Of a DNA stretch of 64,000 bases, positions 9,723-30,608 are shown piece after piece. This DNA comes from an uncultured Pseudoflavonifractor sp. (GTDB taxonomy: Bacteria; Bacillota; Clostridia; Oscillospirales; Oscillospiraceae), in assembly GCF_944387805.1 (NCBI RefSeq), contig NZ_CALXGI010000009.1, positions 1 to 64,000 on the forward strand. The letters run 5' to 3'. The translations under genes and the position numbers were made by a program. The notes under the pieces are model-generated. The model was given only the letters and a program-made list of their open reading frames with translations. It ran no database searches and had not been told where the DNA came from. Within the stretch, counting starts at the first letter, position 1, and each line of letters opens with the position of its first letter.

Positions 9723-9736
9723 TGTTTTATCCCCCT

Positions 9737-9762
9737 GGGAGACCCCTATTTAGAGGCCTCCC
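9737..9762. repeat. Intercistronic hairpin upstream of resolvase
   Basis: GGGAGACCCCTA at 9737-9748 pairs with TAGAGGCCTCCC at 9751-9762, with two mismatches that become G.U pairs in RNA. It lies between the 9786-10094 gene and the resolvase gene. It could be an attenuator or part of a resolution (res) site; a res site would normally show further dyads. Confidence 0.45.
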
Positions 9763-9785
9763 GTGTGTAACGACAAACATGTGTT

Positions 9786-10444: not shown

Positions 10445-10446
10445 AC

Positions 10447-10749
10447 TTAGGCCTCCGTTGAACCTTGAGGAGGGAATTTTCGCAGCATATTATCCTGCAG
10501 ATGATCGATCAGATTCATCAAGCGGGTCTTGATGTCCTGGTAATGATCAACGGTATTGATATTGTGACTGGTACACAGGATGTACAGCGCTATCAATGCA
10601 CCTACGCCATCTTCTAATCCCGTTATATAGGTGGCGTCATCTACTAAACTGCACAATGTTGGCATCATGCGCCCAATCTCCTGCTCGCGTTCTTTTTCGT
10701 CTGTTTCCAACACTTCTTTAAGGATTCGCCGGTGCTGTTTCATTCGCAT
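10447..10749 (-). CDS. Transposon-borne helical protein, paralogue B
   Basis: The 100-aa protein starts at ATG 10749 behind AGGAGG, 11 bases after the tniQ stop. It is the shorter partner of the 10091-10444 protein. The shared core has an amphipathic first helix, a Gly-Asp/Gly-rich turn (GLEDGVGALIALYILC) and a C-terminal basic helix. No DNA-binding or enzymatic motif is visible. Because the pair is tightly linked to tniQ, a function in target selection, regulation or cargo defence is possible, but nothing here decides between these. Confidence 0.65.
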   Translation of the reverse strand: MRMKQHRRILKEVLETDEKEREQEIGRMMPTLCSLVDDATYITGLEDGVGALIALYILCTSHNINTVDHYQDIKTRLMNLIDHLQDNMLRKFPPQGSTEA

Positions 10750-10760
10750 TTTAATTCCTC

Positions 10761-11960: not shown

Positions 11961-11984
11961 AAAACCAACCGATGTACAAGCGCA

Positions 11985-13337
11985 TCAGGGGCCCCGTGCA
12001 TCTTTGGGATATGCATGGTAATCAACCTCCAAGCACCCATGCTCTTTGAGATGAACCTCAATATCTACTCCATTGTTGTACGCAACGAGCAGATCCCCAT
12101 CGTCCCGCTGTGCCGCCTTGCGACCACGCTTGTTTGCATATTGCCTTGGTACTTCTTCCTGGTCTGGCGGTGGTTCTGGCACTTGTGCCCCAATTTCAAA
12201 GTCCGAAATGTGGGTGCCCGCTACATGAGTCCGTGGAACCTTGATGGCCAGCAACTCTACCGCTTGCTGAATGGTTTTTTCGTCGACACAGCTGCGCCCC
12301 TGAAGGAGGGCCCAGTCCTGAGCTTCTGTGAATATCTTGAGAATATAGGCCGGAATACCGCCACTGCAATCGTATAGCTTATTGCCGATGGATGTGGTTA
12401 GTTCTGCCATCTGTACTGTGTACTGATAGGGCCATATCTTGTTCAAAAAATCGAGATATGCTCCGTCCGGCCGAAATGGAGCCAGTCGGATGCCTCTGGT
12501 ACGCCTTTTGAGATGCTCCTGACTTATAAAGAGCTCCTCAGCCAACGGTGTACCTACAAAATAGATGGAGGTCATAGTCTCGTTTGTGAGCTCAACCAGA
12601 TATCGGAGCAGAGGCTTTTCCTGCCGATTTTTTCTGGCCGTTGTGACCGCATTTTGAATCTCATCAATCACCAACAACCCTACATGGTGGTTAGTAAGCA
12701 GGATTTTTGTCTGCACTGCAATGGCGGATGCAGATGCCGATCGCAGCCCCTGCGTTGATTGCAGGTATTTTGCGCCGATAGCCCGATCAAGTGCGGCCAT
12801 AATCCCAAATCCAAGCGTCTTGACCGAGCAGTCACTCGGACATTCAACATGGAGCCACAGTATCTGCTTACAGAACAAGGGCTGCCCCTGGTACTCCACA
12901 TGCTCGATCACCTGTGGCATCGTGGATAGACATCGGCGCACGGTGGCCGTCTTGCCGCACCCTGGAACCCCTAAGATTGACCCGCTGTCTGCCTGCGTGG
13001 CATAGTTGGTGCTCTGGCCGCAGTAGTAGGCGTTGATTGCCCTGGTCGACTCTACCACATCGGCCGTACGGTATGTCGTGGCGATTGCCCGGTATAGCGT
13101 GTCATAGATGGCGTACTGGTACGGCATCGGCACATAGAGCGATGGCAGAGACGGCAGCAGCCCCCGGCGCTCCTCAGGCGACATCTGAGCCAGATCATGG
13201 GGGATAGGTGGGTAACTTGCGATGACCCGGGCAAATTGCTCCGGTGAGAGCATGTCGGGCATGGCGTCCAGGTATGGGTTGCCTGATGAGCCCTCATAGA
13301 TGGCGCTGGCCGCATGGCCAGCTGGATACTTGCTCAT
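11985..13337 (-). CDS. tnsC: TnsC/TniB-like AAA+ ATPase of a Tn7-like transposon
   Basis: The 450-aa protein starts at ATG 13337, overlapping the transposase stop by four bases (ATGA). It has a Walker A motif GVPGCGKT (residues 123-130) and a Walker B motif LLVIDEIQ (221-228). An N-terminal region of about 110 residues and a C-terminal tail rich in Pro and basic residues flank the AAA core. Proteins of this class form filaments on DNA, read the target chosen by TniQ/TnsD and activate the transposase. Length and order match TnsC rather than the shorter IS21 IstB. Confidence 0.92.
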   Translation of the reverse strand: MSKYPAGHAASAIYEGSSGNPYLDAMPDMLSPEQFARVIASYPPIPHDLAQMSPEERRGLLPSLPSLYVPMPYQYAIYDTLYRAIATTYRTADVVESTRAINAYYCGQSTNYATQADSGSILGVPGCGKTATVRRCLSTMPQVIEHVEYQGQPLFCKQILWLHVECPSDCSVKTLGFGIMAALDRAIGAKYLQSTQGLRSASASAIAVQTKILLTNHHVGLLVIDEIQNAVTTARKNRQEKPLLRYLVELTNETMTSIYFVGTPLAEELFISQEHLKRRTRGIRLAPFRPDGAYLDFLNKIWPYQYTVQMAELTTSIGNKLYDCSGGIPAYILKIFTEAQDWALLQGRSCVDEKTIQQAVELLAIKVPRTHVAGTHISDFEIGAQVPEPPPDQEEVPRQYANKRGRKAAQRDDGDLLVAYNNGVDIEVHLKEHGCLEVDYHAYPKDARGP

Positions 13338-15052
13338 GTCAGTTGCCCCCTTTCTGTGAGCTTGTCCTGTTTGATTTGCTCTCCATCGACTCGCTGTATT
13401 GTCTCCCTGTGACTATCTGCGTGCTCAATGATGGCTCGGATGGCCTGGGTGGCGGCAATACTTGATGCTGTCTCTTTTGCACGGGCCGCTCCCCTGTTCT
13501 TCTTGGCTGCTTTATGTGCTTTTTCCCATTCAATTTCGGAAAGCGGCTGGCCAATCCCAATTGCATGACATGGACAGATCCAGTCAGCCAAGATGATATG
13601 GATACGGCGCAGGTCTGCCGGGTCATAGGCAACCGTATAGCTGTCTCCAATGGTCAACCCATCTGCATCATCCGGGGCGTACCACATGCGATTGATCCGG
13701 AGGCCCTTACGGGTCAGCTTGGCGGTATCCCGTGGCAGCGTCTGTATGTGCAGCTCCTGAGGATCCACCGCCATCAATCGGGGTGATAGCTCCGTCCATC
13801 TTTCTGCTGGAGTCTTGCCATCGACAAGTCTCCCGCTGTTTAGGTACAGTACAGAGTGGATTACAACCCGTGCAAAATCATCAAGGTCAAGGGTTGCCTG
13901 CGTGCGGTAGTCGGTAGCCCATCGCTCTTGTGCGTCATCCTCGATTACGCCACGGCCCCGCAGCATAGGCTTGTATCTTTGCTGCAGCAGATCAATCGTT
14001 TTTTCGACGGCCCCCTTGCAGTCCGGCCGAAATGGCGGTAAGGTCAGTACTTCCAGACCATACCGGCGGCATAGTTCCGACATTCTGGGACCGAAAAACT
14101 CACGCCCCTTGTCAGTGATGATCTCAGACGGCATACCCACCGATGGCCATTGCTCCGGTGTGATTTCAATACCGTAACGGGTACAATACTCCACTTTGTC
14201 AGATGCTGCTTGGGCGATACAAGCCATCACCGCAGTTTCATCGCAGTCAAATCCGATATAGACACCGGCGATTAGGTGGGTGGCTGTGTCTACCGCCAAG
14301 TAGATATATGGCCTGCCCACCACGATGGATCGATCCTGCCTGGACACCAGATAGATGTCCGCCTGTGTGGCATCCATCTGATAGCTCCCAGGCTGTGCCC
14401 TCCATCCGGCAGAGGATCCCCATGCAGGTCGATAATCTCTCTGGTATTTGGTAAGGCCATCCCGGGCAATGATTTTTTGAGGATCACGATGAAACCCGTG
14501 TCCATAGTAGTAGTGCCGGAATTGAGACCATGTCGGAGCATCGCTATCTATCTCTCCATCAGGTCCCACATAATCCTCCAGCAGCATCATCTCATAAGCG
14601 GATCTTAGGGATAGCCGTTTGGCACCAAAATAGTACCGCCGGATCGCTCGCTCTATCATCTGATTGCTTTTGCTGGCCTGCCGTGTCCGCTTTTGCGTGA
14701 GTCGTCCTGTGGCAAGATACCGGTAGTACAGCCGCAGGATGCGGCGTGTCGTGGTCTTGTGTTGCTGTGCAACCTCTGCCGCCATCTGGTAACGCAAGGA
14801 CTTGTCCGAGATACAATCAGTGCAATCAAGCAACGGTTGGATCATCTTCAGGCGGGCCACCTGAGCCGGGGTGTTAATCTGTTCTGTCATCCAGCTATCC
14901 GGCGCTGGTACACGCTCATATCTGTGTAGGTCGGCCTCAAAAAATGGTGGAGAGGGGCCGTTACAGTCAGTCAGCCAGCAACCGGCCGGAGTCTCAAGCA
15001 AAACTCGATATATGGCGCCCAATCGTTTCACAAAGCGCAGTGGTCTATCCAT
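13334..15052 (-). CDS. tnsB: TnsB/TniA-like DDE transposase
   Basis: The 572-aa protein begins eight bases inside the end of the TnsA-like gene. It has N-terminal helical DNA-binding segments (about residues 60-160). The RNase-H-like core carries a catalytic triad visible as D227 (YQMDATQADIY), D314 (IITDKGREFFG) and E350 (KGAVEKTIDLL), so the last two are spaced DD35E. A Mu/TnsB-type C-terminal domain and a basic tail follow. The protein cuts and joins the 3' ends of the element. Its closest class is Tn7 TnsB or Tn5053 TniA. Confidence 0.93.
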   Translation of the reverse strand: MDRPLRFVKRLGAIYRVLLETPAGCWLTDCNGPSPPFFEADLHRYERVPAPDSWMTEQINTPAQVARLKMIQPLLDCTDCISDKSLRYQMAAEVAQQHKTTTRRILRLYYRYLATGRLTQKRTRQASKSNQMIERAIRRYYFGAKRLSLRSAYEMMLLEDYVGPDGEIDSDAPTWSQFRHYYYGHGFHRDPQKIIARDGLTKYQRDYRPAWGSSAGWRAQPGSYQMDATQADIYLVSRQDRSIVVGRPYIYLAVDTATHLIAGVYIGFDCDETAVMACIAQAASDKVEYCTRYGIEITPEQWPSVGMPSEIITDKGREFFGPRMSELCRRYGLEVLTLPPFRPDCKGAVEKTIDLLQQRYKPMLRGRGVIEDDAQERWATDYRTQATLDLDDFARVVIHSVLYLNSGRLVDGKTPAERWTELSPRLMAVDPQELHIQTLPRDTAKLTRKGLRINRMWYAPDDADGLTIGDSYTVAYDPADLRRIHIILADWICPCHAIGIGQPLSEIEWEKAHKAAKKNRGAARAKETASSIAATQAIRAIIEHADSHRETIQRVDGEQIKQDKLTERGQLT

Positions 15053-15428
15053 CTACGATCACCACCATCCACTCCGTATCGGTCGCCGCCCAGTACCTGC
15101 GAGATAGCTCCAGGCGCTCTACATGGGCCTTTTTCTTCAACTGTCCTCGCTGCACTAGCTCTCTTACGCCTTTGTGTCCAGCAGCGTACCGGATGACAAA
15201 GTCGGTAGCCCACCCGGTCTGTAGGTAGTCCGTGCGTATGCCCGCCCGTGATATGCGGCCCATGATGTCGGCATCCAGAGGACAACCTACCTGATAACTC
15301 TGCACCCACGCTTGCTCCTCCAACCATCGTGCGTAATTCCTCGCCCACTTACTGTGCAGGCATACGATATCTCCGTTCTTGTTACTGTAAAATCGGATGT
15401 CTCGTGTGCGCTCACCTAAGCGTTCCAT
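15045..15428 (-). CDS. Small TnsA-like protein, catalytic residues apparently lost
   Basis: The 127-aa first gene of the operon starts at ATG 15428 (GGGGAGGGG upstream) and overlaps tnsB by eight bases. Its layout resembles the N-terminal nuclease domain of TnsA: a CLHSKWARNYARWLEEQAWV helix, ATDFVIRYAAG strands and KKAHVERLELSRRYW. TnsA needs an acidic residue in the first helix, an Asp before a strand and a Lys in an ExK/QxK motif. By eye, A29 stands where the Glu should be, D76 is kept, and Q93-R94-G95 replaces the ExK. TnsA normally cuts the 5' ends for cut-and-paste, so this copy may be inactive or purely structural. The alignment is manual. Confidence 0.65.
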   Translation of the reverse strand: MERLGERTRDIRFYSNKNGDIVCLHSKWARNYARWLEEQAWVQSYQVGCPLDADIMGRISRAGIRTDYLQTGWATDFVIRYAAGHKGVRELVQRGQLKKKAHVERLELSRRYWAATDTEWMVVIVDG

Positions 15429-19302: not shown

Positions 19303-20661
19303 TTACAGCAGCGCCTCAATCTCTTCCCTGAGGGCCTTGCCGTCAGGGATCATAGAGACATGGCGGATCTGGCCGTTGATGACCATAGTGGGCAGGTTGG
19401 TGATTCCCATCTTCTTGCAGCGGACTACATTCTCACGGATGGTGTATTTATACTCCACAATATCAATCTTATCGCCGAAGTAGTCCTTGGCAGCCTGTGC
19501 GGCGGCCATCATATAGGTACAGGCGGCGCATTGGGTGGAATCCAGCGTAAAGACTTCGATGAGAGGCCGCTCCAAATGTTCGTAGTCGGGCAGTTCAATT
19601 TGGATGCCGCTCTCGTCGGGACCGGTGTAGTCTTTGAGCATCTCGCGGCACTGCTCGGTGTTCTTCACCGCCTGGGAGCAGGCCACAGTGTTCTCCACAG
19701 GCACATCATAGGGCATGTCGCAGCCGGGACTGATGATCATGTTGCGGTGATCCTCCACCCTGTCCAGCAAATCCACCACATACTTCATGTTGTCCTTGGG
19801 GGTACCGTGGAGCATGACGGTGGTCAGGGGGATATTGCCGCTGATGGCAATGTTGTACTTGTCGGACACACTCTTGCCGTAGACAAAATCCACGTTCTCA
19901 TCCACCGCGATAGAGTCCGGATTGGTCTTGCACATCACATCAAGCTGAGGCGTAGCGTTGCCGCAGACAAAGAAAGAGGAGAACACGCCCCTGCTGCGGA
20001 TATAGTCGAACACCGCCTTGAAGGAGTCCGCCAGCATGGCATCGAAGGACTCAGGGGCAATCTGACTGACCAGGGGGTCCACTACCGCGATGACATCCAT
20101 GCCTGCGTTGATATAGTAATCGCACATGCGGATGGAGACCTCGGCGCAATAACCCACCAAATCGCGGACATACTGCTCATCCATGAGCATATCCAGGAAG
20201 ATCTCGCTTCCCCGCAGGTGAGAGGCCAAGGTGAAGGGACCGCAGATGAGGCCATAGAGGGCGATGTCGTCGCCAACCGAGGCCTTCAGCTTGGTCATGG
20301 CCTCCAGCATAACGGGAATCCGGCCGGACTCAGGGGTGGGCAGCTTACAGCGGCAGGGAATCCCTTTATTGTCCCCCTCAAAGGGGTGGCTGGCCACGGA
20401 GGGCGGATTATCCTTGGCCCACATCAGGTCGCAGCCCAGAATCTCCGCCTCCAGCTGGAGGTCGAACATGATGGGCATGCCGTCAGGCCCATAGAGCCGG
20501 GCCACCTCCATCAGACACTCATAGAGCTTCTGACCGTCCTGAAGAATCTCCTCCGCAGTATAGCCCTTGAGCTTTCCGGAGTGAATGCCGGCAAAGGGCA
20601 CCCAGGGCACCCGCTTGGTGGGCTCGTGACGCATGGTCTTAAAAATCAGTTCCTTACCCAT
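19303..20661 (-). CDS. URO-D-family corrinoid methyltransferase fused to a thioredoxin-like domain
   Basis: The 452-aa protein has a uroporphyrinogen-decarboxylase-like barrel (about residues 1-355). Metal-binding-type residues are seen as FFVCGN and ISPGCDMP, as in MtaA/MtbA methyltransferases that move methyl groups between corrinoid proteins and a thiol. Residues about 365-452 add a thioredoxin-fold domain with C378-A-A-C381 and a cis-proline motif (NLPTMVI). It is the last gene of the corrinoid operon. It probably accepts the methyl group from the corrinoid protein; the acceptor (a thiol or tetrahydrofolate) is unknown. Confidence 0.8.
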   Translation of the reverse strand: MGKELIFKTMRHEPTKRVPWVPFAGIHSGKLKGYTAEEILQDGQKLYECLMEVARLYGPDGMPIMFDLQLEAEILGCDLMWAKDNPPSVASHPFEGDNKGIPCRCKLPTPESGRIPVMLEAMTKLKASVGDDIALYGLICGPFTLASHLRGSEIFLDMLMDEQYVRDLVGYCAEVSIRMCDYYINAGMDVIAVVDPLVSQIAPESFDAMLADSFKAVFDYIRSRGVFSSFFVCGNATPQLDVMCKTNPDSIAVDENVDFVYGKSVSDKYNIAISGNIPLTTVMLHGTPKDNMKYVVDLLDRVEDHRNMIISPGCDMPYDVPVENTVACSQAVKNTEQCREMLKDYTGPDESGIQIELPDYEHLERPLIEVFTLDSTQCAACTYMMAAAQAAKDYFGDKIDIVEYKYTIRENVVRCKKMGITNLPTMVINGQIRHVSMIPDGKALREEIEALL

Positions 20662-20744
20662 AATGATATAATTCCTTTCCAGACCGGGGGCCGGAGGCGG
20701 AACCCTCCAGCCCCTCAGAATGCAGTGATGTGATGGCAGGACGC

Positions 20745-22307
20745 TTACTTTTCCACCGCTTTTGCGTCTTTTTTCGCCTTCTTAACCTCATAGAACCGGT
20801 TCATTCCGGCCTCCAGCGTGGCAAAGAAGGGAGCGGCGTCGCTCTCGGGCTGTTTGGTCACCAGACTGACCACAAACATGGTCACTGCAGAGCCCAGGAG
20901 ACCAAAGGCGCCGTACCAGGTGTCGCCCACGTCCCACACGAAGTAGGTCATGAGAACCAGCACCGTGCCCACAATGGAGGCGACGATAGCCGCCTGCTTG
21001 GTGGCCTTCTTCCAGTACAGGCCGAACACCAGCACGGCGAACAGGGGCGTTACAATGGCGATGGAGAACATAATCAGGGTGAAAATCAGATCGGGCGGAT
21101 TGATGGCCAGAACAGTGGAGGTCAGGCCGATAACCACGATGATGACCCGGTGGACCATATTCTCCTTTTTCTCAGGCACCTTAATATGGAAGGTATTTTT
21201 AATCAAATCGGAGGACACAATGGCGGCGCTGACGCCCAGGAAAGCATTGGCGGTGGACAGGCCTACGGCCGCAGAGCCCACGAAGAAGCCAATCATCAGC
21301 ACAACGGCCAGCATGGGGCTGAAGTCCAGCACGAAGTTCTTCACCAGATAGGGGATGATGAGCTCGGACTCGGAGGCGGTCATATTGCTGACCAGAGCCA
21401 GGCCAATGAGGCCGATCATCATGGTGCCGGTCCAAACCACGGCCTGGAGCACAGGGGTGAGGAAGGACAGCTTGCGCTGGGTCTTCATGTTGTCGCCAAA
21501 ATAGCCGGAACGGACGAACACATGGGGCAGCATGATGGTCCAGCCGATGGCGCAGGAGAAGGGATAGCCGAACCGGGCCGCGTAGGGCGTCCAGCCGGAG
21601 GGGCCGGGATAGGAGAAGAACGACTGCGTGTTCTCCCACAGGTTGCCCACCGCCGCAGGCAGGGATCCGCCAAAGCCCACGATAAGGCAGGCGATGACGA
21701 TGACCCACAGCATGGCAATAAACAGCAGGCCCTGGACAGTATCCGCCATGGCGGCGGACTTCATGCCGCCGATGCACACAAAAACCGTCATGGTCAGGCC
21801 GATGACAATAACAGCCATGCGGTAGTTGATGGCGCCGTCAGTGGCATACTGGGCCGCCTGGGCGATGGCCACCAGGGTGGAGGTGACATAGGGTACGGCG
21901 GAGACCAGGAAGATGATGCCCAGGATGGTGCGCAGGGCGTTGCTCTTGAAGCGCTCATAGTAGAAATCTGCGGGAGTAACCAGCGTGCCGCCCTTTTCCT
22001 GATTGACGATCCACACCTTGTTCATGGTAAAGTGGGCGATAATGGGGAACAGGGCAATGTAGCTCATCTCAGACAGCCAGTAGCCCAGGCCGCCGCGGTA
22101 GTAGGCGCCGGGGCCGGCGAAGAACACCCAGGTGCTCATCAGAGACGCGATGTAGGTCATAACCAGCACCGGCCAGGGCACGGATGCGGTCAGCAGGCTT
22201 CCCTTGTTCTTCTGGCGGCGCTCCTTCAGCGTAACGTAGACTGCCACGCCGATGAGGAAGCACATGTACAGGCCAAATGCGATCCAGATAGTATTGGCGC
22301 TCAGCAT
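20745..22307 (-). CDS. Sodium:solute symporter (SSS family)
   Basis: The 520-aa membrane protein has about 13 hydrophobic segments and starts at ATG 22307 behind AAGGAGG. It shows SSS features such as YYRGGLGYWLSEMSY near the N-terminus. SSS carriers use a sodium gradient to bring in substrates such as proline, betaine or sugars. Its place between the MttB homologue and the URO-D gene implies that it imports the methylated amine substrate. It is paired with the 78-aa protein encoded just upstream. The substrate cannot be read from the sequence. Confidence 0.88.
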   Translation of the reverse strand: MLSANTIWIAFGLYMCFLIGVAVYVTLKERRQKNKGSLLTASVPWPVLVMTYIASLMSTWVFFAGPGAYYRGGLGYWLSEMSYIALFPIIAHFTMNKVWIVNQEKGGTLVTPADFYYERFKSNALRTILGIIFLVSAVPYVTSTLVAIAQAAQYATDGAINYRMAVIVIGLTMTVFVCIGGMKSAAMADTVQGLLFIAMLWVIVIACLIVGFGGSLPAAVGNLWENTQSFFSYPGPSGWTPYAARFGYPFSCAIGWTIMLPHVFVRSGYFGDNMKTQRKLSFLTPVLQAVVWTGTMMIGLIGLALVSNMTASESELIIPYLVKNFVLDFSPMLAVVLMIGFFVGSAAVGLSTANAFLGVSAAIVSSDLIKNTFHIKVPEKKENMVHRVIIVVIGLTSTVLAINPPDLIFTLIMFSIAIVTPLFAVLVFGLYWKKATKQAAIVASIVGTVLVLMTYFVWDVGDTWYGAFGLLGSAVTMFVVSLVTKQPESDAAPFFATLEAGMNRFYEVKKAKKDAKAVEK

Positions 22308-22310
22308 CCG

Positions 22311-22547
22311 TTATCCCTCCTTTGTACTGGACGCGGGGGGCGCGTCCGCATCATCTCGCAGCTTGTAAATCCGGTAGACCCTTACCAGGCCCACATAGAC
22401 GATGATCCAGATGGGTACGACCGTAAGCAGCGCGTGAATCAGCGTGGGAATGGCCTCGCCATAAGGCGGGACACCAGGGAGATTGTAGAGGATATAGAAG
22501 ATTACCGTGAGAATCAGCCAGATTTTTTCCGTCTTCGTTACTTTCAT
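22311..22547 (-). CDS. Small membrane partner of the SSS transporter (YhdT/DUF997-like)
   Basis: The 78-aa protein has two membrane helices: IWLILTVIFYILYNL and IWIIVYVGLVRVYRIYKL, after a Pro/Gly loop (PGVPPYGEAIP). Small proteins of this shape (YhdT, DUF997) are commonly encoded directly before SSS transporters such as PanF. It ends three bases before the SSS gene, so the two are co-expressed and probably form one transporter. The family name is by shape and context. Confidence 0.7.
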   Translation of the reverse strand: MKVTKTEKIWLILTVIFYILYNLPGVPPYGEAIPTLIHALLTVVPIWIIVYVGLVRVYRIYKLRDDADAPPASSTKEG

Positions 22548-22625
22548 CTCTAAACCGCCTTTCTCTCAAATTCCAGACACACATGCGGAATTTCGTCGCC
22601 GAAACCGCTTATGGGGCGGATCCAT

Positions 22626-22657
22626 GATATGGCCCGCACGGAGATGCGGGCCATATC
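22626..22657 (-). terminator. Intercistronic hairpin after the mttB homologue
   Basis: A perfect 12-bp stem (22626-22637 and 22646-22657) with an 8-base loop, 20 bases after the mttB-like stop, lacks a T-run. It likely trims or stabilises the upstream mRNA, lowering expression of the transporter genes that follow. Confidence 0.6.
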
Positions 22658-22676
22658 GCAGATGGCCGGAGTGCGC

Positions 22677-24134
22677 TTACTCCTTTACCAGCGCGGCGTG
22701 GGCCTGCTTGAGCACCTTCTCCACCTCAGCAGCCTTGTCGGCAGGCAGGGCGTAGACGTCCTCGGCAGCCATGATGGCGTGGAACTTCTCCACGGCCTTC
22801 TCCGCCAGGGTCTTGCTGCCGGCCAGCTCCCAATTCACGGGGCTGTCCCGGTTGAACATGTCGGGGCGGTGAGGCTCGGTAAAGTGGCGGAAGGTGTGCT
22901 CGCTGGTCAGGAAGCTGAAGGACGGATCCCGATCGGCGCCGGAAATAAGATCCTCCCAGTCCAGCGTCTCGTCGTTGACGTCCAGGCCGCGGCGGATGCG
23001 GCGGGCAATACCGAAGATCTCGTTGTCGATGATCAGCTGCACGGGACTGATGGTCTTGGCGGTCTCCAGCTGGCCGGCGCCGCCCAGGACGGAGGCCTCG
23101 CTCATGGCCATGGCGTCAATGAGGTTGGTGCGCTCAATGAAGTTCTGCGCGTCCAGCACCACGCTGTCGGTGCCGGTGCCGTAAGAGTGGGCGCGGATAT
23201 TGTAGCCCCGCTCAAAGAGCTCCATGCAGATAAGACGGGCGATGGTGATCTCAGTGTTGGACTGGAGGGTATAAGTACTCTGCATGTCCATGGAGAACAG
23301 CAGCGGCGTGGCGATAACCGGCAGGCCGGGGCAGAGGAGCTCCAGAATCACAATCTGGGCAAAGACCTCGGCGCAGGCCACAAAGGCGGTGCCCTGGGCG
23401 GTGACGGGGGTGTTGGCTCCGGCAGTGGGCAGAGAGCAGGGCTGGACAGGCACCTTGGCCTTGGCGCAGCGGTAGAGCACCTCGGCGTCCATATGCTTGA
23501 AGGTCAGGCTGGGCACGCCGCAGGAGATGAAGCTGACAATGGGCTTCTTCTGCAGGTTCTCCAGCCCGCCCACAGCGGCGGCGGCCATGTCGATGAGCCA
23601 CTGGACATTGTCGGACTCATAGGGCTGAATCCAGATATGCTTGGCGGAGTGCTTCAGTGCCTTCTCCAGCGTATAGACATCCACAGCGTCGCCGGGCACG
23701 TACTCGCCGGAAGTGGAAGGCAGGGTGACATAGTCCAGGTTCTCCATCACGTTGGTGATCTTATACCACTCGTCCACCTCTTCCAGGGTGGTGTAATGAG
23801 TGTCGCCATTGATGGTGCGGTAGTTGGGCGCACCGGTATTGGTGCGGGTATAGAAGCTGCCGGTGGGATTGGGGAACTCCAGGTCGTACTTGCCGCTGGG
23901 AGAATAGAGGGTGAATTTCTTGGGGACGGCAGCGACGGCTCTGTCGATAAGCTCCTTGGTAAAGCGGACATCCTTCTTCTCCATGTCTACCGCGCAGCCC
24001 AGCTTATCCAGCTCGGAGAGCAGCTCCTCATGGTCCAGATGAATGCCGCGCTCGATGAGCAGCTGTTCCATGCGGGACTTGAGATACTGAAGTTCCTGGT
24101 CGCTCAACACTTCATATTTAACTCTTCCTACCAT
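22677..24134 (-). CDS. mttB: MttB-family trimethylamine/quaternary amine methyltransferase, non-pyrrolysine type
   Basis: The 485-aa protein belongs to the MttB superfamily: N-terminal GRVKYEVLSDQEL, then LPSTSGEYVPGDAVDVYTLE and a TIM-barrel core (VILELLCPGLPVIATPLLF). There is no in-frame TAG, so the pyrrolysine found in true trimethylamine enzymes is absent. Homologues of this kind (for example MtgB, MtpB, MtcB) demethylate glycine betaine, proline betaine or carnitine onto a corrinoid protein. Immediately upstream lie two corrinoid protein genes, as expected. The exact amine is not determined; the transporter and regulator beside it support import and sensing of it. Confidence 0.87.
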   Translation of the reverse strand: MVGRVKYEVLSDQELQYLKSRMEQLLIERGIHLDHEELLSELDKLGCAVDMEKKDVRFTKELIDRAVAAVPKKFTLYSPSGKYDLEFPNPTGSFYTRTNTGAPNYRTINGDTHYTTLEEVDEWYKITNVMENLDYVTLPSTSGEYVPGDAVDVYTLEKALKHSAKHIWIQPYESDNVQWLIDMAAAAVGGLENLQKKPIVSFISCGVPSLTFKHMDAEVLYRCAKAKVPVQPCSLPTAGANTPVTAQGTAFVACAEVFAQIVILELLCPGLPVIATPLLFSMDMQSTYTLQSNTEITIARLICMELFERGYNIRAHSYGTGTDSVVLDAQNFIERTNLIDAMAMSEASVLGGAGQLETAKTISPVQLIIDNEIFGIARRIRRGLDVNDETLDWEDLISGADRDPSFSFLTSEHTFRHFTEPHRPDMFNRDSPVNWELAGSKTLAEKAVEKFHAIMAAEDVYALPADKAAEVEKVLKQAHAALVKE

Positions 24135-24224
24135 AGGAATTCATCCTCCATTTCATTCATATCTGCCGGCGCAAGGCCGGGATGTCAGTCGGAATCGCAA
24201 AGGCCGGAACGTTCAGTCGGAATT

Positions 24225-24866
24225 TCAGCGGATGCTGGTTACATACTCCTTGGCCCAGCGGGCGGCGGCGGCGGCATCGGCAGTGAAGGCATCAGCGCCG
24301 ATCTTGTCGGCCCAGGCCTGGGTAACAGGGGCGCCGCCGATCATAACCTTGACCTGGTCCCGGACGCCGGCCTGCTTCAGGACCTCAATGACATGGCCCT
24401 GCTCGTTCATCGTGGTGGTCAGCAGCGCGGAGAGGCCCACAATATCAGGATTGTACTCCTTGATGGCCTCCACGAACTTCTCTGCGGGAACGTTGGCGCC
24501 CAGGTCAATGACCTTCAGATTGGCGCTCTTCATCATCAGGCCCACCAGGTTCTTTCCGATGTCGTGGAGGTCGCCCTTCACAGTGGCGATGACAGCGGTG
24601 CCGATGGTGGTGTCGCCGCCGGCGGCCAGCAGGGGCTGAATGACTTCCACGCCGGTATTCATGGCCTTGGCGGACATGAGCACGTTGGGCACGAAAATCT
24701 GCCCCTTGGCAAACCGCTCGCCAATCTCGTTGATGCCGGGCATCAGTCCGTTGTTCAAAATGTCGGTGGCCTCCACCTTCTGCTCCACTGCCTCGGCCAC
24801 CTTAGCCTTGGTACCCATGATGTCGCCCTTAATAACAAGCTCGGTGATCTCGTTGAGAATAGACAT
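24225..24866 (-). CDS. mttC: Corrinoid protein (MttC/MtbC-like), cobalamin-binding
   Basis: The 213-aa protein has the MetH-like cap/B12-binding pair: a helical N-terminal domain with LMPGINEIGERFAKGQIFVPNVLMSA, then a Rossmann-type domain with the cobalamin-binding motif GDLHDIGKN near residues 98-106 and GSANVPAE-like strands. His101-type axial coordination is typical. It accepts the methyl group from the MttB homologue at its Co(I) centre. It is encoded next to mttB, in the expected order. Confidence 0.9.
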   Translation of the reverse strand: MSILNEITELVIKGDIMGTKAKVAEAVEQKVEATDILNNGLMPGINEIGERFAKGQIFVPNVLMSAKAMNTGVEVIQPLLAAGGDTTIGTAVIATVKGDLHDIGKNLVGLMMKSANLKVIDLGANVPAEKFVEAIKEYNPDIVGLSALLTTTMNEQGHVIEVLKQAGVRDQVKVMIGGAPVTQAWADKIGADAFTADAAAAARWAKEYVTSIR

Positions 24867-24953
24867 GAATTCCCGCTCCTTTTCAAATATTATCCGTATG
24901 CCTGCTTCCTTCGTTTGTCCTTGGTCTCAGCTATCGTGTGTAAGGTACAGCGC

Positions 24954-25613
24954 TCAGTCCTGCGGAGGCTTCCGCCGTTCTGTGCTAATCTCGGTGGCCA
25001 GGCGGGCCGTGTCCATCATCGTCGCAGAGAACTCCACTCCTAACTCCCGGGCAAAGCTGGGCGTAATGGGGCCGCCCCCCACAATGATGTGGACGGGATA
25101 GCCGAAATCCTCCTGGCGAATCCGCTTCACAGTCTCCTTCATACTGGCCATGGATGTGGTCAGCATGGCGGACATGGCCACAATTCGAGCGCCGTCTGCC
25201 CGCAGCTGGGCAATGAACTGTTCGGCACCGACATTGGACCCCAGATCCGTCACATCGAATCCGGCGCTCTGGAGCATAATGCTCACCAGGCTTTTTCCGA
25301 TGGTGTGGATGTCGCCACGGACGGTTCCAACCACAACCTTCTCCCGATGGATCGCTCCTTCCGTCTGTTCCAGCAGCAGCGGCCGAATGATGGACACCGC
25401 CTTCTGCATGGCTCTGGCCGAGAGCAGGATTTGAGGGATAAACCGCTCCTCCCTGCTCAGCATCACGCCCAGACGATCCATGGCCGGAATCATGCCCTTT
25501 TCCAGAATGTCCACCGGACGGCAACCCTTTGCAAGCAGCTCTCGGCACTCCGCTACGGTCTTCTTTTCATCCCCGTCGATGATGCTCTGAAAAATTGTAC
25601 TAAACCGATTCAT
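24954..25613 (-). CDS. Second corrinoid protein, variant binding motif
   Basis: The 219-aa protein is a paralogue of the 24225-24866 product, sharing the same cap (MIPAMDRLGVMLSREERFIPQILLSARAM) and B12 domain. Its binding motif reads VRGDIHTIGKSL: the D-x-H-x-x-G core is kept, but the flanking Asp and Asn of the usual DLHDIGKN have changed. Two corrinoid proteins in one operon could use different substrates or acceptors. It is the first gene of the minus-strand operon. Distinct specificity is inference. Confidence 0.85.
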   Translation of the reverse strand: MNRFSTIFQSIIDGDEKKTVAECRELLAKGCRPVDILEKGMIPAMDRLGVMLSREERFIPQILLSARAMQKAVSIIRPLLLEQTEGAIHREKVVVGTVRGDIHTIGKSLVSIMLQSAGFDVTDLGSNVGAEQFIAQLRADGARIVAMSAMLTTSMASMKETVKRIRQEDFGYPVHIIVGGGPITPSFARELGVEFSATMMDTARLATEISTERRKPPQD

Positions 25614-25744
25614 TCTGCTGTTCCTTTCCGCTCCACGCTTGTAGTATATCGAAACCAGCCTATATTTTCTAAGAAAAATACCATTTCTTTTTGTTTTATT
25701 CCGGCGTATTTGCCAACGTTTAGCCCTGGTAGGAAACTTGTTTA

Positions 25745-25773
25745 TTGCTTTTCTTCCAAAAAAGGGGTATAGT
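25745..25773 (+). promoter_or_regulatory. Promoter of the PocR/AraC regulator operon
   Basis: TTGCTT at 25745-25750, a 17-base spacer and TATAGT at 25768-25773 form a plausible sigma-A promoter. It lies in the divergent intergenic region, with the hairpin at 25786-25817 just downstream. Confidence 0.6.
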
Positions 25774-25785
25774 ATTTAAAAAATT

Positions 25786-25817
25786 ACAAATTGGTAATCT
25801 CTATTTTACCAATTTGT
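25786..25817 (+). promoter_or_regulatory. Inverted repeat, likely operator or leader hairpin of the divergent corrinoid operons
   Basis: ACAAATTGGTAA at 25786-25797 and its exact complement at 25806-25817 are separated by 8 bases. The repeat starts about 13 bases after the -10 box of the plus-strand regulator. Its position and symmetry suit an operator for the PocR-type regulator or an RNA hairpin. Confidence 0.6.
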
Positions 25818-25886
25818 TCTTCCCCCTACAACGCTGCACCATCTCCCATACAGGAATCTACTTCATGCTAGATAGGAGGAATTCGG

Positions 25887-27164
25887 TTGCCTGCCATTGA
25901 TCATAAGCGCCTGCATGAATATCTGGACGCCTTCAGCGTGAGCACCGGCGTGCCGGTGACCCTTTTTGACCCGGACGGCGTAATTTTGGAGGAATTTCAG
26001 GCGGAGAAAAAATTTTGCCAATTCTTTCCCATCTATCGTCAGCCGGAAAGCATTTGCAGCAGTACGCTGCTCTTTTCTGCCAAATCCTCCTATCATCTGG
26101 GCGAACCATACATATTTTCCTGTCCATCCGGCTTGATCCACATCGCCGTCCCTGTTATTGTATCAGAAAAGTTCTGCGGCTGCGCTGTGGCCGGCCCCAT
26201 ATCCATGGGCCCTGTGTCTGCCGAATTCCTCACCCAGGCCTTCGAGTTTAATCAGGTCTCTCCTGATCTTCTGGCGAAAATTTCTCTTTTCATTTCCTCC
26301 ATGCAGGTATATACTCCAGAACAAATACAGAAGTTCTCCCTGCTGCTGTATAGCGCAGTGGTACACAGCCATAAAAACTGGGACGACTACGAACAGCTCC
26401 GCCTCCGCTATCAGCGCCAGCTCACCGTGGGAGACCACATTCAAAAACGCAAGCAGAGCAGGCCCCAGAACACCTCTGCCGCCCTGTCCGCTCCCACCTG
26501 TTCAGATTTGGAGGACCGCCTTTCCAAAGAAATTCAGGCCCGCAACCGCGAGGCTGCCCTCACCTGTCTGGAGGACCTCTTTGAAGAATTGGTCCTGGTT
26601 GAAGGCGGCAATTTCGACAGCATTAAGCTGCATTTCTTTGAACTGTATATCTCCCTGGCCCGTATGTCCACTGAGCGGGGTGCGTCCCTTCGCAAGATCT
26701 TCGGCCTGGATTTCAAATTTATTAACTCCCTGAATGAACTCAATACATTGGACAGCCTGGCCCAATGGAGCCGGGAGCTGGTGGTTCATTTTGTGGATGA
26801 TGTCTTTGCCGACCTGCCCCAGGTATCCTCTGCCATCACCCGGGCGGTGAGCTATATCAACGCCCACTATATGGAGAAGATGACGCTGCGAGATCTGGCC
26901 GCAGCCCTCTTTCTCAATGAGTCCTCCCTGTCCAAGCTGTTCCGGCAGGAGCTGGGCTCCAGTTTCACCGATTATCTCAATCGCATTCGCATTGAACACA
27001 GCACCGAACTGATGCGCAACACAGACAGAAGCCTGCTGGAAATCGCTGGACTGGTAGGGTTTGATGATCAGAGCTATTTTACAAAAATCTTCAAAAAGGT
27101 GACTGGGACCACTCCTCGCCGGTACAAAAGTCAACTCAGCAGCGAGAAACACGTCTCTGGCTGA
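25887..27164 (+). CDS. PocR-domain AraC-type transcriptional regulator
   Basis: The start is TTG 25887 behind AGGAGG, giving a 425-aa protein. Residues about 1-170 match the PocR ligand-binding domain pattern (DAFSVSTGVPVTLFDPDG, then a Cys-rich CSSTLL...FSCPSGLIHIAVPV). The C-terminal about 100 residues are two helix-turn-helices of AraC type (KMTLRDLAAALFLNESSLSKLFRQELGSSF and IAGLVGFDDQSYFTKIFKKVTG). It is divergent to the methyltransferase genes, so it probably activates them when the methylated amine or a downstream metabolite binds. Confidence 0.85.
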   Translation: MPAIDHKRLHEYLDAFSVSTGVPVTLFDPDGVILEEFQAEKKFCQFFPIYRQPESICSSTLLFSAKSSYHLGEPYIFSCPSGLIHIAVPVIVSEKFCGCAVAGPISMGPVSAEFLTQAFEFNQVSPDLLAKISLFISSMQVYTPEQIQKFSLLLYSAVVHSHKNWDDYEQLRLRYQRQLTVGDHIQKRKQSRPQNTSAALSAPTCSDLEDRLSKEIQARNREAALTCLEDLFEELVLVEGGNFDSIKLHFFELYISLARMSTERGASLRKIFGLDFKFINSLNELNTLDSLAQWSRELVVHFVDDVFADLPQVSSAITRAVSYINAHYMEKMTLRDLAAALFLNESSLSKLFRQELGSSFTDYLNRIRIEHSTELMRNTDRSLLEIAGLVGFDDQSYFTKIFKKVTGTTPRRYKSQLSSEKHVSG

Positions 27165-27223
27165 TTCCTTGAATGACGCTCCACAAGCTCACGAATTCAG
27201 ACACGAGGAAAGGATGACCTTTC

Positions 27224-27880
27224 ATGGTTTACTTCGCTGATGTTACGCCCAAATATGACCGGGAGCGCATTTTTCGCAGGCTCCATATTGAGCCGGATAC
27301 CAACGCTTACCAATATGCCCAGTCGGTCTTTCCCTCCTTGGCGGAGATTGCCCGTCAGCAGCTCTGCATGACGCACTGCTACTCCGTGGATGAGAACGAA
27401 CCGCCCGTAGGCGTGCCCGAGGTGGACCGGTGCAAGTACCGCATTACCTGTCTGTCCACCTGCTCGGAGAACATCACAAGGGAAATTTCCCAAATGCTGG
27501 CTCAGGGTGATTTTCTAGAGGGTTATATCCTCAACGACTTGGTCAATGAGCTGCTCTTCAACGCCTCTGACCAGATGAACCGCCAGATCTCCGCTGCCAT
27601 GGAGGAAAAGGGCTGCCACCTTACCCAGCGATTCTCTCCCGGTGAACGGGAGCTGGGCCTGGAGTACCAGTCCTCCCTTCTGTCCGCTTTTCACAATATC
27701 CCCGCCGTGTCCCATGTGAGACTGACGGAGAGCTACATGCTCTACCCCGAGAAATCCATGCTCTATCTCTTCGGGGCTGACCGCAGCAATCCGGAGATCT
27801 CTGTGGAACACGACTGCGGCAAGTGTTCCAACACCTCCTGCTTCTTCCGCTCCACGGAAGGGCCTGCTGCCTGTCTCTGA
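27224..27880 (+). CDS. MetH activation-domain-like protein
   Basis: The 218-aa protein resembles the vitamin B12-dependent methionine synthase activation domain: RFSPGERELGLEYQSSLLSAF, RLTESYMLYPEKSMLYLFGADR and a C-terminal CGKCSNTSC cluster. In MetH, this region uses S-adenosylmethionine and a reduced flavodoxin to re-methylate oxidised cobalamin. A stand-alone copy next to a RACo gene suggests a second means of rescuing the corrinoid protein. The N-terminal half is less well conserved. Role by family and context. Confidence 0.75.
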   Translation: MVYFADVTPKYDRERIFRRLHIEPDTNAYQYAQSVFPSLAEIARQQLCMTHCYSVDENEPPVGVPEVDRCKYRITCLSTCSENITREISQMLAQGDFLEGYILNDLVNELLFNASDQMNRQISAAMEEKGCHLTQRFSPGERELGLEYQSSLLSAFHNIPAVSHVRLTESYMLYPEKSMLYLFGADRSNPEISVEHDCGKCSNTSCFFRSTEGPAACL

Positions 27881-27923
27881 TTCCGCCCACAAATCAAGAC
27901 AATCAAACTGGAGGTTTTGCCCT

Positions 27924-29660
27924 ATGTACTGCATCAAACTGCCCAACCAAAACACAGCCTTTGAGACGTCAGGCGGTGTAACCATCTCCCAGGCCTGCGC
28001 CGCCGCCGGTTTCCCCATGGATCTGGTCTGCGGCGGCCGGGGCACCTGCGGCAAGTGCGCTGTCCGGATCGACCGGGGCGGCGTCAGCGAGACTGTCCTT
28101 GCATGCCGGACAGTGGTAGATTGTGATATGACCGTCTACCTGGAGGAACACCAGCTCACCCGGGACGCGTCCATCGTCACTGAGGGTCGCTCCGCCCATC
28201 GCGCCAGGCTCTCCCCTGCTGTCTCCAAGCGCTGCCTGACCAAGACTGAATTGATGCCTGCTCACTGCGGCGCCTACCTGGAACCGGCCTCTTCCAGCCT
28301 TTTGCGCTCATTTTCCAAGCTGATGGCTGACTCCTCAGTGGAGCGGGTCACCTTTGTGTCCTACCGGGGGAAACCTCTGGCGGTAGAACCCGGCGACACC
28401 ACCTCCCTGCTCTACGGCGGCGCCATTGACATCGGCACCACCTCTGTGGTGCTCTATGCCTACGATTTGAACACCGGTGCGCTGCTCCACACTGTGTCCG
28501 CACTGAATGGACAAATTGTAAGAGGCGCTGATGTCATCACCCGCATTCTCCATACCCGCCAGAACAAGGACGGCCTGGACGAGCTAAACGGCCACATCCG
28601 GGATACCATTCACGAGCTGCTGGATCAGGCAGAGCAGAAGATCCCTGGCTTCCGCAGCCATCTCTACCATCTGGTGCTCTGCGGCAACAGCACCATGCAG
28701 CACCTCTTTCTGGGTCTGGACCCTTACGGGCTCTCTCAGGACCCCTTTGTTAACATCACCGCCGGGCCTGTCCGCTGTTCCGGTGCTGAGGCTGGGATTG
28801 ACATGCCTGCGGGCGGCGTGGTGGAATTTCTCCCCCTGCTGGGCGGCTTCGTCGGCGCCGACACCGCCGCCGTACTTCTCACGCTTCCCACCGACAGAGG
28901 TCCCTGCCTGATGGTGGACTTGGGCACCAACGGCGAGATTGCCGTGGGCAATGGCGACGGATACAAGGTGGCCTCCACCGCCTGCGGCCCCGCTCTGGAG
29001 GGCGGCAACATCTCCTGCGGCATGCGGGGCATGGAAGGCGCCATCGAGCGGGTCTCCCTTCAGGATGGCAAGCTGACTTACCGCGTTATCGGCGGTGTGG
29101 AGCCTCTTGGACTGTGCGGCTCCGCCATTATTGACGCGGTGGCTGAGCTGCGCCGGGCCGGCATCATCGATGAAACCGGCCGGCTTCTGCCCGCCGACGA
29201 GTTCCTGGCCGCCCACCCCGGCAGCCCTCTGGCTGAATATCTGGGTGAGGCCGGGGAGTTTAATACTGCCTTCTACTTCGCCCGGGGCGACCGTCCAGTC
29301 TACCTCTCCCAGCATGACGTGCGGCAGATCCAGCTGGCCAAGAGCTCCATCTTCTCCGGCTGCATCACCCTTCTGGAGGAGTCCGGCCTCTCCCCTGACC
29401 AGCTGGACGCCCTCTACCTGGCTGGCGCCTTCGGCAACTACATTGACATCGACCGGGCCCTTGCGATCGGCTTGCTCCCTCCCGTTCCCCGGGATCGGAT
29501 CTTCTCCATCGGAAACGGCGCCGGTCAGGGCGTGCAGCTGTGTCTGCTGGACCAGGCGGAGATGGATCGCTGCGAGGCCCTCCCTGCCTCCATTGAGCAT
29601 GTGGAGCTGGCTACCAACCCAAAATTCATGGAGACCTACATTATGAACATGAATTTTTAA
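27924..29660 (+). CDS. RACo-type reductive activator of corrinoid proteins
   Basis: The 578-aa protein has an N-terminal [2Fe-2S] ferredoxin-like domain with C36GGRGTCGKC45 and a fourth Cys at about residue 61. The large ASKHA-like ATPase part carries GGAIDIGTTSVVLY and VDLGTNGEIAVGN phosphate loops and LYLAGAFGNYIDIDRA. RACo proteins hydrolyse ATP to push an electron from the iron-sulfur cluster onto Co(II) and restore Co(I). It follows the MetH-activation-like gene and precedes the COG0523 gene, as in other methyltransferase operons. Confidence 0.9.
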   Translation: MYCIKLPNQNTAFETSGGVTISQACAAAGFPMDLVCGGRGTCGKCAVRIDRGGVSETVLACRTVVDCDMTVYLEEHQLTRDASIVTEGRSAHRARLSPAVSKRCLTKTELMPAHCGAYLEPASSSLLRSFSKLMADSSVERVTFVSYRGKPLAVEPGDTTSLLYGGAIDIGTTSVVLYAYDLNTGALLHTVSALNGQIVRGADVITRILHTRQNKDGLDELNGHIRDTIHELLDQAEQKIPGFRSHLYHLVLCGNSTMQHLFLGLDPYGLSQDPFVNITAGPVRCSGAEAGIDMPAGGVVEFLPLLGGFVGADTAAVLLTLPTDRGPCLMVDLGTNGEIAVGNGDGYKVASTACGPALEGGNISCGMRGMEGAIERVSLQDGKLTYRVIGGVEPLGLCGSAIIDAVAELRRAGIIDETGRLLPADEFLAAHPGSPLAEYLGEAGEFNTAFYFARGDRPVYLSQHDVRQIQLAKSSIFSGCITLLEESGLSPDQLDALYLAGAFGNYIDIDRALAIGLLPPVPRDRIFSIGNGAGQGVQLCLLDQAEMDRCEALPASIEHVELATNPKFMETYIMNMNF

Positions 29661-29681
29661 TGGTTACGGAGGATGACAGAT

Positions 29682-30608
29682 ATGAGCAAGCTTGTTCTTC
29701 TCACCGGTTTTCTGGGGGCTGGTAAGACCACCTTTCTCAACCATGTGCTTCAGGAATTCTCCCAGGAAAAAATCGGTCTGATTGTTAATGAATTCAGCGG
29801 CACCGGTGTAGACGGCGCCCTTATCCGCCACGACATCCCCGGCGCCAGCATGATTGAGCTCAACAACGGCTCCATCTTCTGCGCCTGCATCAAGGACTCC
29901 TTTGTGGACTCTCTCATCGATATGGCCGGACGGGATCTGGACTATGTCTTTGTGGAGGCCTCCGGTCTGGCCGACCCCTCCAGCATCTCCTCCATTCTGG
30001 ACCAGATTGCCGCCCTCTCCGGCGCGGTCTACGACTACTGCGGCGCCATCTGTCTGGTGGACGCCCTCTACTTTCCCAAGTACCTCAAGCTGCTTCTGGC
30101 TCTCCGCCGTCAGGTGGAGTACAGCCGGGCAGTCATTCTCAACAAGGCCGATCTGGTGACAGAGGAGCAGCTGACGCAGGTAGAGCAGAGTATTCGGGAG
30201 ATCAACCCCAGGGCTGACATCTACCGCGCCACCTATGCCAACGTCTCCCTGCGGGACATTCTCGCCAAAGGCCCTCAGGAAGAAGCTGCACCTCAGGAGA
30301 GCTCCAACACCGAGAGCAGCCGCCCCGTCACCATCACGCTCTCCACCCAGGAGGCCGTCACCCTCCAGGCCCTGCGGCAGTTCCTGGAGGAGATTGCCCC
30401 CTCCACCTACCGGGTCAAGGGCTTCTGCCGCACCACCGAGGGCACCAAAAATGTCAGCATGGTGGGCACAGTCTGCCAGATGGAGGACTGGGGCGACGCC
30501 CTGGACCAGACCCAGCTGGTCATCATCTCCAATGTGGGTGTGCGCATCTTCTCCGTCACCCTGGAAGCTGCCAAGCACTGCTTCCACTCTCCCGTGGACC
30601 TGCGGTAA
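29682..30608 (+). CDS. COG0523 (CobW-like) GTPase
   Basis: The start is ATG 29682, nine bases after GGAGG; an earlier in-frame ATG at 29673 touches the Shine-Dalgarno. The 308-aa protein has the P-loop GFLGAGKTT, the NKAD motif and a SIFCACIKDS segment. Here the usual CxCC metal motif reads CAC followed by Ile, so one cysteine is missing. COG0523 GTPases act as metal chaperones and one class (CobW) is tied to cobalamin biosynthesis. It is the last gene of the activator operon, so a cobalt/corrinoid link is likely. Confidence 0.8.
   Translation: MSKLVLLTGFLGAGKTTFLNHVLQEFSQEKIGLIVNEFSGTGVDGALIRHDIPGASMIELNNGSIFCACIKDSFVDSLIDMAGRDLDYVFVEASGLADPSSISSILDQIAALSGAVYDYCGAICLVDALYFPKYLKLLLALRRQVEYSRAVILNKADLVTEEQLTQVEQSIREINPRADIYRATYANVSLRDILAKGPQEEAAPQESSNTESSRPVTITLSTQEAVTLQALRQFLEEIAPSTYRVKGFCRTTEGTKNVSMVGTVCQMEDWGDALDQTQLVIISNVGVRIFSVTLEAAKHCFHSPVDLR

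Follow-up and report, generated by a model that had tools for sequence, protein, structure and literature searches.

Two divergent operons around an MttB homologue

The window analysed here is a stretch of 64,000 nucleotides from an uncultured Pseudoflavonifractor sp. (contig NZ_CALXGI010000009.1), in which a group of genes at 19303..30608 probably serves corrinoid-dependent demethylation by a member of the MttB superfamily. It also encodes a methyltransferase in which a uroporphyrinogen decarboxylase-type (URO-D) domain is fused to thioredoxin (Trx), hereafter URO-D-Trx. The genes form two divergent operons. The minus strand carries, in order of transcription, the corrinoid proteins CorB and CorA, the MttB homologue, a small membrane protein, an SSF symporter and URO-D-Trx, while the plus strand carries a PocR/AraC regulator, a protein with the fold of the MetH activation domain, the corrinoid activase RACo and a COG0523 GTPase. 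The named genes are open frames matching their families, in Pfam profile searches or, for one, by fold, and the names given to them by an earlier inspection of the letters of this DNA (the sequence-only reading) were about correct.

The full set recurs in six other genomes, clustered beyond chance: a Pseudoflavonifractor metagenome-assembled genome (MAG; L006), Eubacterium aggregans (L007), E. barkeri (L008), an Oscillibacter MAG (L009), Acetobacterium bakii (L010) and an Oscillospiraceae MAG (L011). Across these six, identities are 77–93% for MttB and 79–97% for URO-D-Trx; CorB is 94% identical in L006 and 49–58% identical to its counterparts in L007–L011, and the position of the COG0523 gene varies. 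E. aggregans and E. barkeri each hold a second URO-D-Trx locus (L014 and L018), with different MttB and corrinoid genes. In the window's family, 2 of 200 genomes have this MttB, its own genome and one of the same genus, and in the order 9 of 197 genomes, its own included, have URO-D-Trx at E <= 1e-80. Since carriers are few in the family and order, yet the same set occurs in distant genomes, the island is apparently passed among distant Clostridia.

The MttB homologue (22677..24134, minus strand, 485 aa) reaches 192.4 bits with the Pfam MTTB profile (PF06253; curated cut-off 25), and scores 147 bits to MttB of M. barkeri and 98 bits to MtgB. It is not the pyrrolysine trimethylamine methyltransferase: no stop occurs across its 485 codons, glycine is aligned to the pyrrolysine site, and the pyrrolysine MttB model TIGR02369 gives 283 bits against a cut-off of 525. 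CorA (24225..24866, minus strand, 213 aa) and CorB (24954..25613, minus strand, 219 aa) both carry B12-binding and B12-binding_2 domains (PF02310, PF02607), and the best NCBIfam model of CorA is of the MtgC type, at 225 bits below its cut-off of 370. The carrier (20745..22307, minus strand, 520 aa) is an SSF sodium:solute symporter (PF00474, 107 bits; sss, PanF and PutP models below cut-off). An open reading frame (ORF) for 78 aa, which the sequence-only reading did not list (22311..22547, minus strand), separates the gene of MttB from that of the symporter in 6/6 close loci. Its product shows two hydrophobic stretches and no match in Pfam or NCBIfam, and is a probable symporter partner. Because the carrier belongs to the SSF and not the BCCT family, and the MttB is nearer to Methanosarcina MttB than to MtgB, betaine becomes one substrate option among several. 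Of the complete two-operon system for quaternary-amine demethylation that had been proposed, we retain corrinoid-dependent demethylation by an MttB-superfamily protein and the two divergent operons, and regard the quaternary amine and the completeness as proposals.

The plus-strand operon begins with the PocR-domain AraC-type regulator (25887..27164, 425 aa, TTG start; PF10114 (PocR) 77 bits, PF12833 (HTH_18) 81 bits). In the divergent intergenic region, a perfect 12-bp inverted repeat with an 8-bp spacer (25786..25817) is a possible operator. It is kept as 11 bp in L006 and absent from L007–L011, and no operator common to all close loci was found. RACo (27924..29660, plus strand, 578 aa) is supported by three domains above cut-off (PF14574 and PF17651; RACo_C_ter 243 bits, Raco_middle 143 bits, N-terminal Fer2 23.7 bits), and scores 319 bits with the AcsV model, below its cut-off of 800. 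The 218-aa protein encoded at 27224..27880 (plus strand) has no Pfam match, and the sequence-only reading had called it MetH-activation-like. This label was borne out by its AlphaFold2 (AF2) model (predicted local distance difference test, pLDDT, 90.7), which superposes on TM0269 of T. maritima, a stand-alone MetH activation domain (1j6r), with Z 18.1 and an rmsd of 2.7 over 181 residues, the first unrelated structures falling below Z 6; a profile match to the same domain has E 3e-14. By predicted fold, the protein is thus probably a MetH activation domain, and its C-terminal cysteines C198/C201/C206 are invariant. A domain of this kind also forms the front part of 711–783-aa RACo fusions in ten loci (L022, L025, L032, L040, L042, L056, L060, L062, L064 and L072), and these fusions support joint action of the two rescue proteins.

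Tn7-like transposition genes lie about 4 kb from the locus (9057-15428, minus strand), beside tsf and rpsB as named by eye. They comprise a TnsA-like gene (15045-15428), a Mu/TnsB-like gene (13334-15052), a TniB/TnsC-like ATPase (11985-13337), TniQ (10761-11960) and a resolvase (9057-9722). An Rfam scan of the window gave no match.

The active site of URO-D-Trx and its GTPase neighbour

URO-D-Trx (19303..20661, minus strand, 452 aa) scores 173 bits with the URO-D profile and 22.8 bits with Thioredoxin_3, just below the cut-off of 24.8; a second copy in the same genome reaches 29.2 bits with the latter. We compared it with the best 80 of 108 confirmed loci, which were found with peptides of the window protein, and counts therefore lean toward its relatives. 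These loci are mostly from Clostridia, and their proteins are 55–97% identical to the window copy over nearly the full length. ORFs in the loci were picked by a homology-weighted choice; in GC-rich loci antisense frames win by length. With the window copy and the second own copy, the family comprises 82 members, and a 79-row alignment omits L033, L035 and L067, whose frames are interrupted.

The AF2 model of the window protein is of high quality (pLDDT 93.5; predicted template modelling score, pTM, 0.89). Its residues 1–337 superpose on MtbA (4ay8), the nearest solved fold, with Z 42.3 and 1.8 Å over 325 residues at 23% identity, a comparison that covers the URO-D part and barely touches the Trx domain. 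The relation to MtaA and MtbA also appears in sequence (E 1.7e-24), and models of these two enzymes match all 72 scanned members, the window copy lying below their cut-offs. MtaA-type enzymes bind zinc through His-Cys-Cys, according to the main text of a preprint by Kountz and Balskus (PMC10418091). In URO-D-Trx, however, the histidine is replaced by phenylalanine (F231) in 82/82 members. No row of the 79-row alignment departs from F231 or C233, the three omitted proteins also read FFVCG, and the His-to-Phe column is identical in two sequence alignments to MtbA. As controls, the third URO-D protein of the same genome and five paralogues with both cysteine sites (L033_27, L034_0, L035_34, L037_12 and L077_0) keep H-x-C; the remaining URO-D paralogues examined have other sites. 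Concomitantly, the Trx domain carries CAAC (378-381 in the window copy) in 82/82 members, both of its cysteines being invariant. With the histidine ligand lost, a thioredoxin fused and a probable selenocysteine (Sec) form in two relatives, the protein is not an ordinary MtaA-type enzyme.

The gene of the COG0523 GTPase (29673..30608, plus strand, 311 aa) is a nearly constant neighbour of this enzyme. Its G3E domain matches PF02492 (cobW) with 128 bits, and in alignment to YjiA it has GSIFCAC in place of CXCC. Across the loci, GS[IVL]xCxC stands at the site of the YjiA CXCC motif in 76 of 77 COG0523 members, and GCxCC in none of the 77. A COG0523 gene is present in 76/80 loci. Where more than 1,300 bp are available downstream (73 loci), it starts within 400 bp on the same strand in 63. 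The altered metal motif of a GTPase that is nearly always next door suits the altered metal site of the enzyme, and the two proteins may have evolved together.

At position 314, a conserved zinc-ligand position, 80 of the 82 members, including the window copy, have cysteine, and L033 and L035 have TGA (10937-10939 in both). Before the TGA, 154 of 312 codons differ between these two genes, 137 of them synonymously; behind it, 56 of 139 differ, 52 of them synonymously, which indicates purifying selection. Hence, the stretch behind the TGA appears to be translated. SelB exceeds its curated cut-off of 242 bits in both genomes (373 and 386 bits), and a survey of nine neighbour families in the 80 loci revealed no further case of TGA aligned to cysteine. 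We therefore regard L033 and L035 as a probable new selenoprotein form of URO-D-Trx. Exchange of cysteine for Sec generally marks reactive residues, which makes a purely structural role of C314 as a ligand improbable. The hairpin behind the TGA (z -1.3 and -2.8) was rejected as proof of a selenocysteine insertion sequence, because cysteine members fold as strongly (mean -14.8, sd 5.1 kcal/mol). No tRNA-Sec was found in the stretches around selB to which the search was confined; a signal recognition particle RNA lies near selB in L095, and one sub-threshold Rfam small RNA match in L035 was set aside. In L067 an in-frame TAA lies elsewhere than at C314, and this is probably a damaged gene or a sequence error. 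The main text of a 2026 review of prokaryotic selenoproteomes (PMC13188914) names neither uroporphyrinogen nor MtaA, and corrinoid only for HgcA. A description of a URO-D-thioredoxin fusion was not found in the open-licence literature, subscription papers being mostly not searchable, and the family is apparently undescribed.

Genomic partners and the fate of the methyl group

Within 5 kb of URO-D-Trx, the 80 loci hold a corrinoid gene in 48 cases, a regulator of the PocR cluster in 41, RACo in 34 and MttB in 12. For the 45 loci whose flanks reach 5 kb or more in each direction, the corresponding numbers are 26 for corrinoid genes, 21 for RACo and 9 for MttB. Because MttB is near only 12/80 loci, URO-D-Trx and COG0523 appear to be a general module for which MttB is one partner. 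In a tree built from the 79-row alignment, a single 17-row clade (support 100/99) contains 12 of the 13 rows that have MttB as a neighbour, with 5 label changes against 12.3 in shuffles. The MttBs near URO-D-Trx in this clade belong to divergent MttB subfamilies, as is expected if URO-D-Trx serves a step that is not specific to the substrate. The earlier suggestion that the URO-D fusion takes the acceptor step can thus be kept in part: it is the best candidate for that step, but it is not an ordinary enzyme of the MtaA type and is not tied to MttB.

Such partner counts also bear on a different arrangement, in which MttB works with CorA on one compound and URO-D-Trx with CorB on another, whose methyl would sit on S, Se or another soft atom, and the acceptor is encoded elsewhere. 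Two distinct corrinoid proteins occur in 7/7 close loci, and 18 of the 45 roomy loci have a corrinoid gene and no MttB within 5 kb, URO-D-Trx often being the only recognised methyltransferase there. Moreover, in the main text of PMC10418091 methyl-selenium or methyl-sulfur compounds are proposed as substrates for demethylation by related MtaA-like proteins (Mlps). However, the concentration of MttB neighbours in one clade suggests a joint pathway, and non-acetogen genomes with the set are without a dedicated folate acceptor for methyls of this kind. We consider such a division into two half-systems unlikely.

The second URO-D-Trx/COG0523 pair of the same genome, on contig 36 (L089:5854-13275), is 62% identical to the window copy and stands in other company. 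It adjoins DUF5714 (a weak match to the selenoprotein MbdU), an SsuA/NMT1-type ABC transporter resembling SaoP, SaoX and SsuA, and a BioB-like radical SAM protein. These neighbours would suit a role of the pair in handling metals, metalloids or organometals (arsenic, mercury, selenium), with the adjacency of MttB as a regulatory or salvage link. In addition, Trx domains of the family match models of ArsE/MTH895 (45/72), TsoX (38) and SaoT (10), and DUF2284 and DUF5714 lie within 5 kb in 11/80 and 9/80 loci. However, the NCBIfam scores of the neighbours of the second copy are far below cut-offs, small Trx models cross-match, and the locus in the window has no recognised gene for arsenic or mercury. 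A role of this kind is thus very improbable in our estimation.

The absence of an MtgA/MtrH-type acceptor, already remarked in the sequence-only reading, holds across the genome of the window, which is 98% complete. MtrH is missing from it, and its sole Pterin_bind protein is an 801-aa MetH beside MTHFR, with homocysteine, pterin and B12 domains and no activation domain. A separate MtgA-type gene elsewhere, which that reading had named as evidence that would speak against it, did not appear in the MtrH family or among Pterin_bind proteins beyond MetH. Within the 98% completeness, a hidden MtrH/MtgA- or MtqA-type acceptor is therefore rejected. Acetyl-CoA synthase (CdhC) was not found in this genome either, so that it is not a Wood-Ljungdahl acetogen; its FTHFS lies in two pieces on two contigs. 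The other carriers of this gene set divide into two groups. Pterin_bind matches number 8, 8 and 14 in the three isolates of acetogen type, where CdhC is also matched strongly, and 1, 0 and 1 in the three gut MAGs. Among these MAGs, CdhC is absent from two and weak in L006 (25.9 bits, just over the cut-off of 24, and regarded as doubtful). In each of the four genomes with no strong CdhC match, no dedicated folate-type acceptor was found, as judged by Pterin_bind in all of them and by MtrH in the window's genome; MAG incompleteness weakens the individual zero counts. Thus, the set appears to have been kept where no dedicated folate-type methyl acceptor turned up.

With such an acceptor missing, the housekeeping MetH, or free methylcobamide, might be the sink for the methyl from MttB, which MetH would pass on to methionine or methyl-folate; URO-D-Trx would then have an accessory role. 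The MetH of this genome, which is without its own activation domain, and the MetH-activation-fold protein at the locus would agree with this. However, that fold is fused to RACo and not to MetH in ten loci, and in the Oscillibacter MAG, which has the whole cluster but may be incomplete, not a single Pterin_bind protein was seen. Moreover, the normal direction of MetH is from folate methyl to its own cobalamin. MetH as the sink is therefore unlikely.

The best explanation, to which we give about an even chance, is a mobile corrinoid demethylation island in which URO-D-Trx passes the methyl to a thiol-type acceptor. According to this model, the SSF symporter with its small membrane subunit would import an N-methylated, probably quaternary, compound, and the MttB homologue would transfer one methyl group from this compound to a corrinoid protein in the Co(I) state, CorA being the likeliest. 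URO-D-Trx would then take the methyl from the corrinoid protein to a thiol-type (soft) acceptor rather than to tetrahydrofolate, at a site that would rely on two cysteines, C233 and C314 (the latter replaceable by Sec), and have no classical histidine. The fused CAAC domain may keep this site or the acceptor reduced, and the COG0523 GTPase may help to metallate the enzyme. RACo and the MetH-activation-fold protein would rescue oxidised corrinoid, and the PocR/AraC protein would regulate the system. The sequences themselves show the gene content, the conserved clustering, the lack of a dedicated folate-type acceptor, the altered site, the invariant CAAC and the probable Sec at C314 in two relatives, whereas the class of substrate, the direction of the URO-D step, the acceptor and what the GTPase does are inferred.

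Several points weigh against the island model. That the window encodes two corrinoid proteins is equally compatible with two separate half-systems, and MetH is a possible methyl sink. Substrate and acceptor are candidates only. With the histidine lost, zinc binding by the URO-D domain may have been lost too. Moreover, a corrinoid partner is not always evident: within 5 kb, both corrinoid genes and RACo are missing from 15 of the 45 roomy loci, and no corrinoid gene was recognised in the 19.5 kb around the second own pair.

A wider and more tentative possibility is that URO-D-Trx and COG0523 constitute an undescribed class of redox-coupled corrinoid methyltransferase. Here the thiol or selenol at C314, together with the CAAC, would take the place of the His-zinc chemistry that MtaA uses. 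Anaerobes that lack a Wood-Ljungdahl pathway or a dedicated folate methylase could then dispose of or pick up methyls on a soft acceptor, with MttB and other modules plugging in. The fate of methyls stripped from N-methyl compounds by non-acetogenic gut anaerobes bears on trimethylamine formation. The same set occurs in acceptor-rich acetogens and in gut bacteria without a dedicated acceptor, so that the question of the acceptor can be put to the test with a single purified enzyme. Furthermore, a URO-D-type family with a lost histidine, a fused thioredoxin and a probable Sec form would extend knowledge of both corrinoid methyl transfer and selenoproteins.

Comparison with known systems

The demethylase part resembles the MtpB, MtcB, MtyB and MthB systems of E. 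limosum, which also combine a non-pyrrolysine MttB homologue with a corrinoid protein and an ATP-dependent activase, as described in the passages of PMC12155760 on these systems. There the methyl passes to tetrahydrofolate via MtqA or MthA, whereas the locus and genome of the window are without a protein of either type and have URO-D-Trx, the COG0523 GTPase and the SSF carrier. The Desulfitobacterium MtgB/MtgC system for glycine betaine (2qne, 9yce) shares the MttB superfamily, and MtgC is the best model, though below cut-off, for CorA. However, the MttB homologue of the window scores higher against MttB of Methanosarcina than against MtgB, and the MtrH-type MtgA is lacking.

The bacterial mlp clusters (Kountz and Balskus, PMC10418091) likewise contain an MtaA-like URO-D protein, a corrinoid protein and an activase, and no folate methylase, in the account given in the preprint's main text. 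In that definition, a type 1 cluster has at least two Mlps and co-directional corrinoid and Ram genes, with no folate methylase within 20 kb. The window has one URO-D protein and a divergent RACo, and its locus is thus not of this type. Mlps are invariably His-Cys-Cys except some Mlps1 according to the same text, whereas URO-D-Trx is Phe-Cys-Cys. The main text does not mention COG0523, cobW, GTPase or MttB, and thioredoxin occurs only in the title of a reference. The methanogen methylcorrinoid:thiol methyltransferases MtaA, MtbA and MtsA (4ay7/4ay8) share the fold and the two zinc-site cysteines with URO-D-Trx, which differs in His-to-Phe, the fused Trx and the Sec-type TGA in two members.

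For the GTPase, the nearest likeness is one of context. The passages of Haas et al. (2009, PMC2770081) on COG0523 place subfamily 13, G3E GTPases proposed as metal chaperones, beside genes of corrinoid-dependent methyltransferases, a likeness that does not imply membership of the window protein in this subfamily. The CXCC motif, common to the COG0523 family in the same account, is replaced by GS[IVL]xCxC in the window's partner family. Taken together, the demethylase half would belong to a known kind, while the URO-D-Trx/COG0523 half appears to be new, and its role probably decides whether the system is complete.

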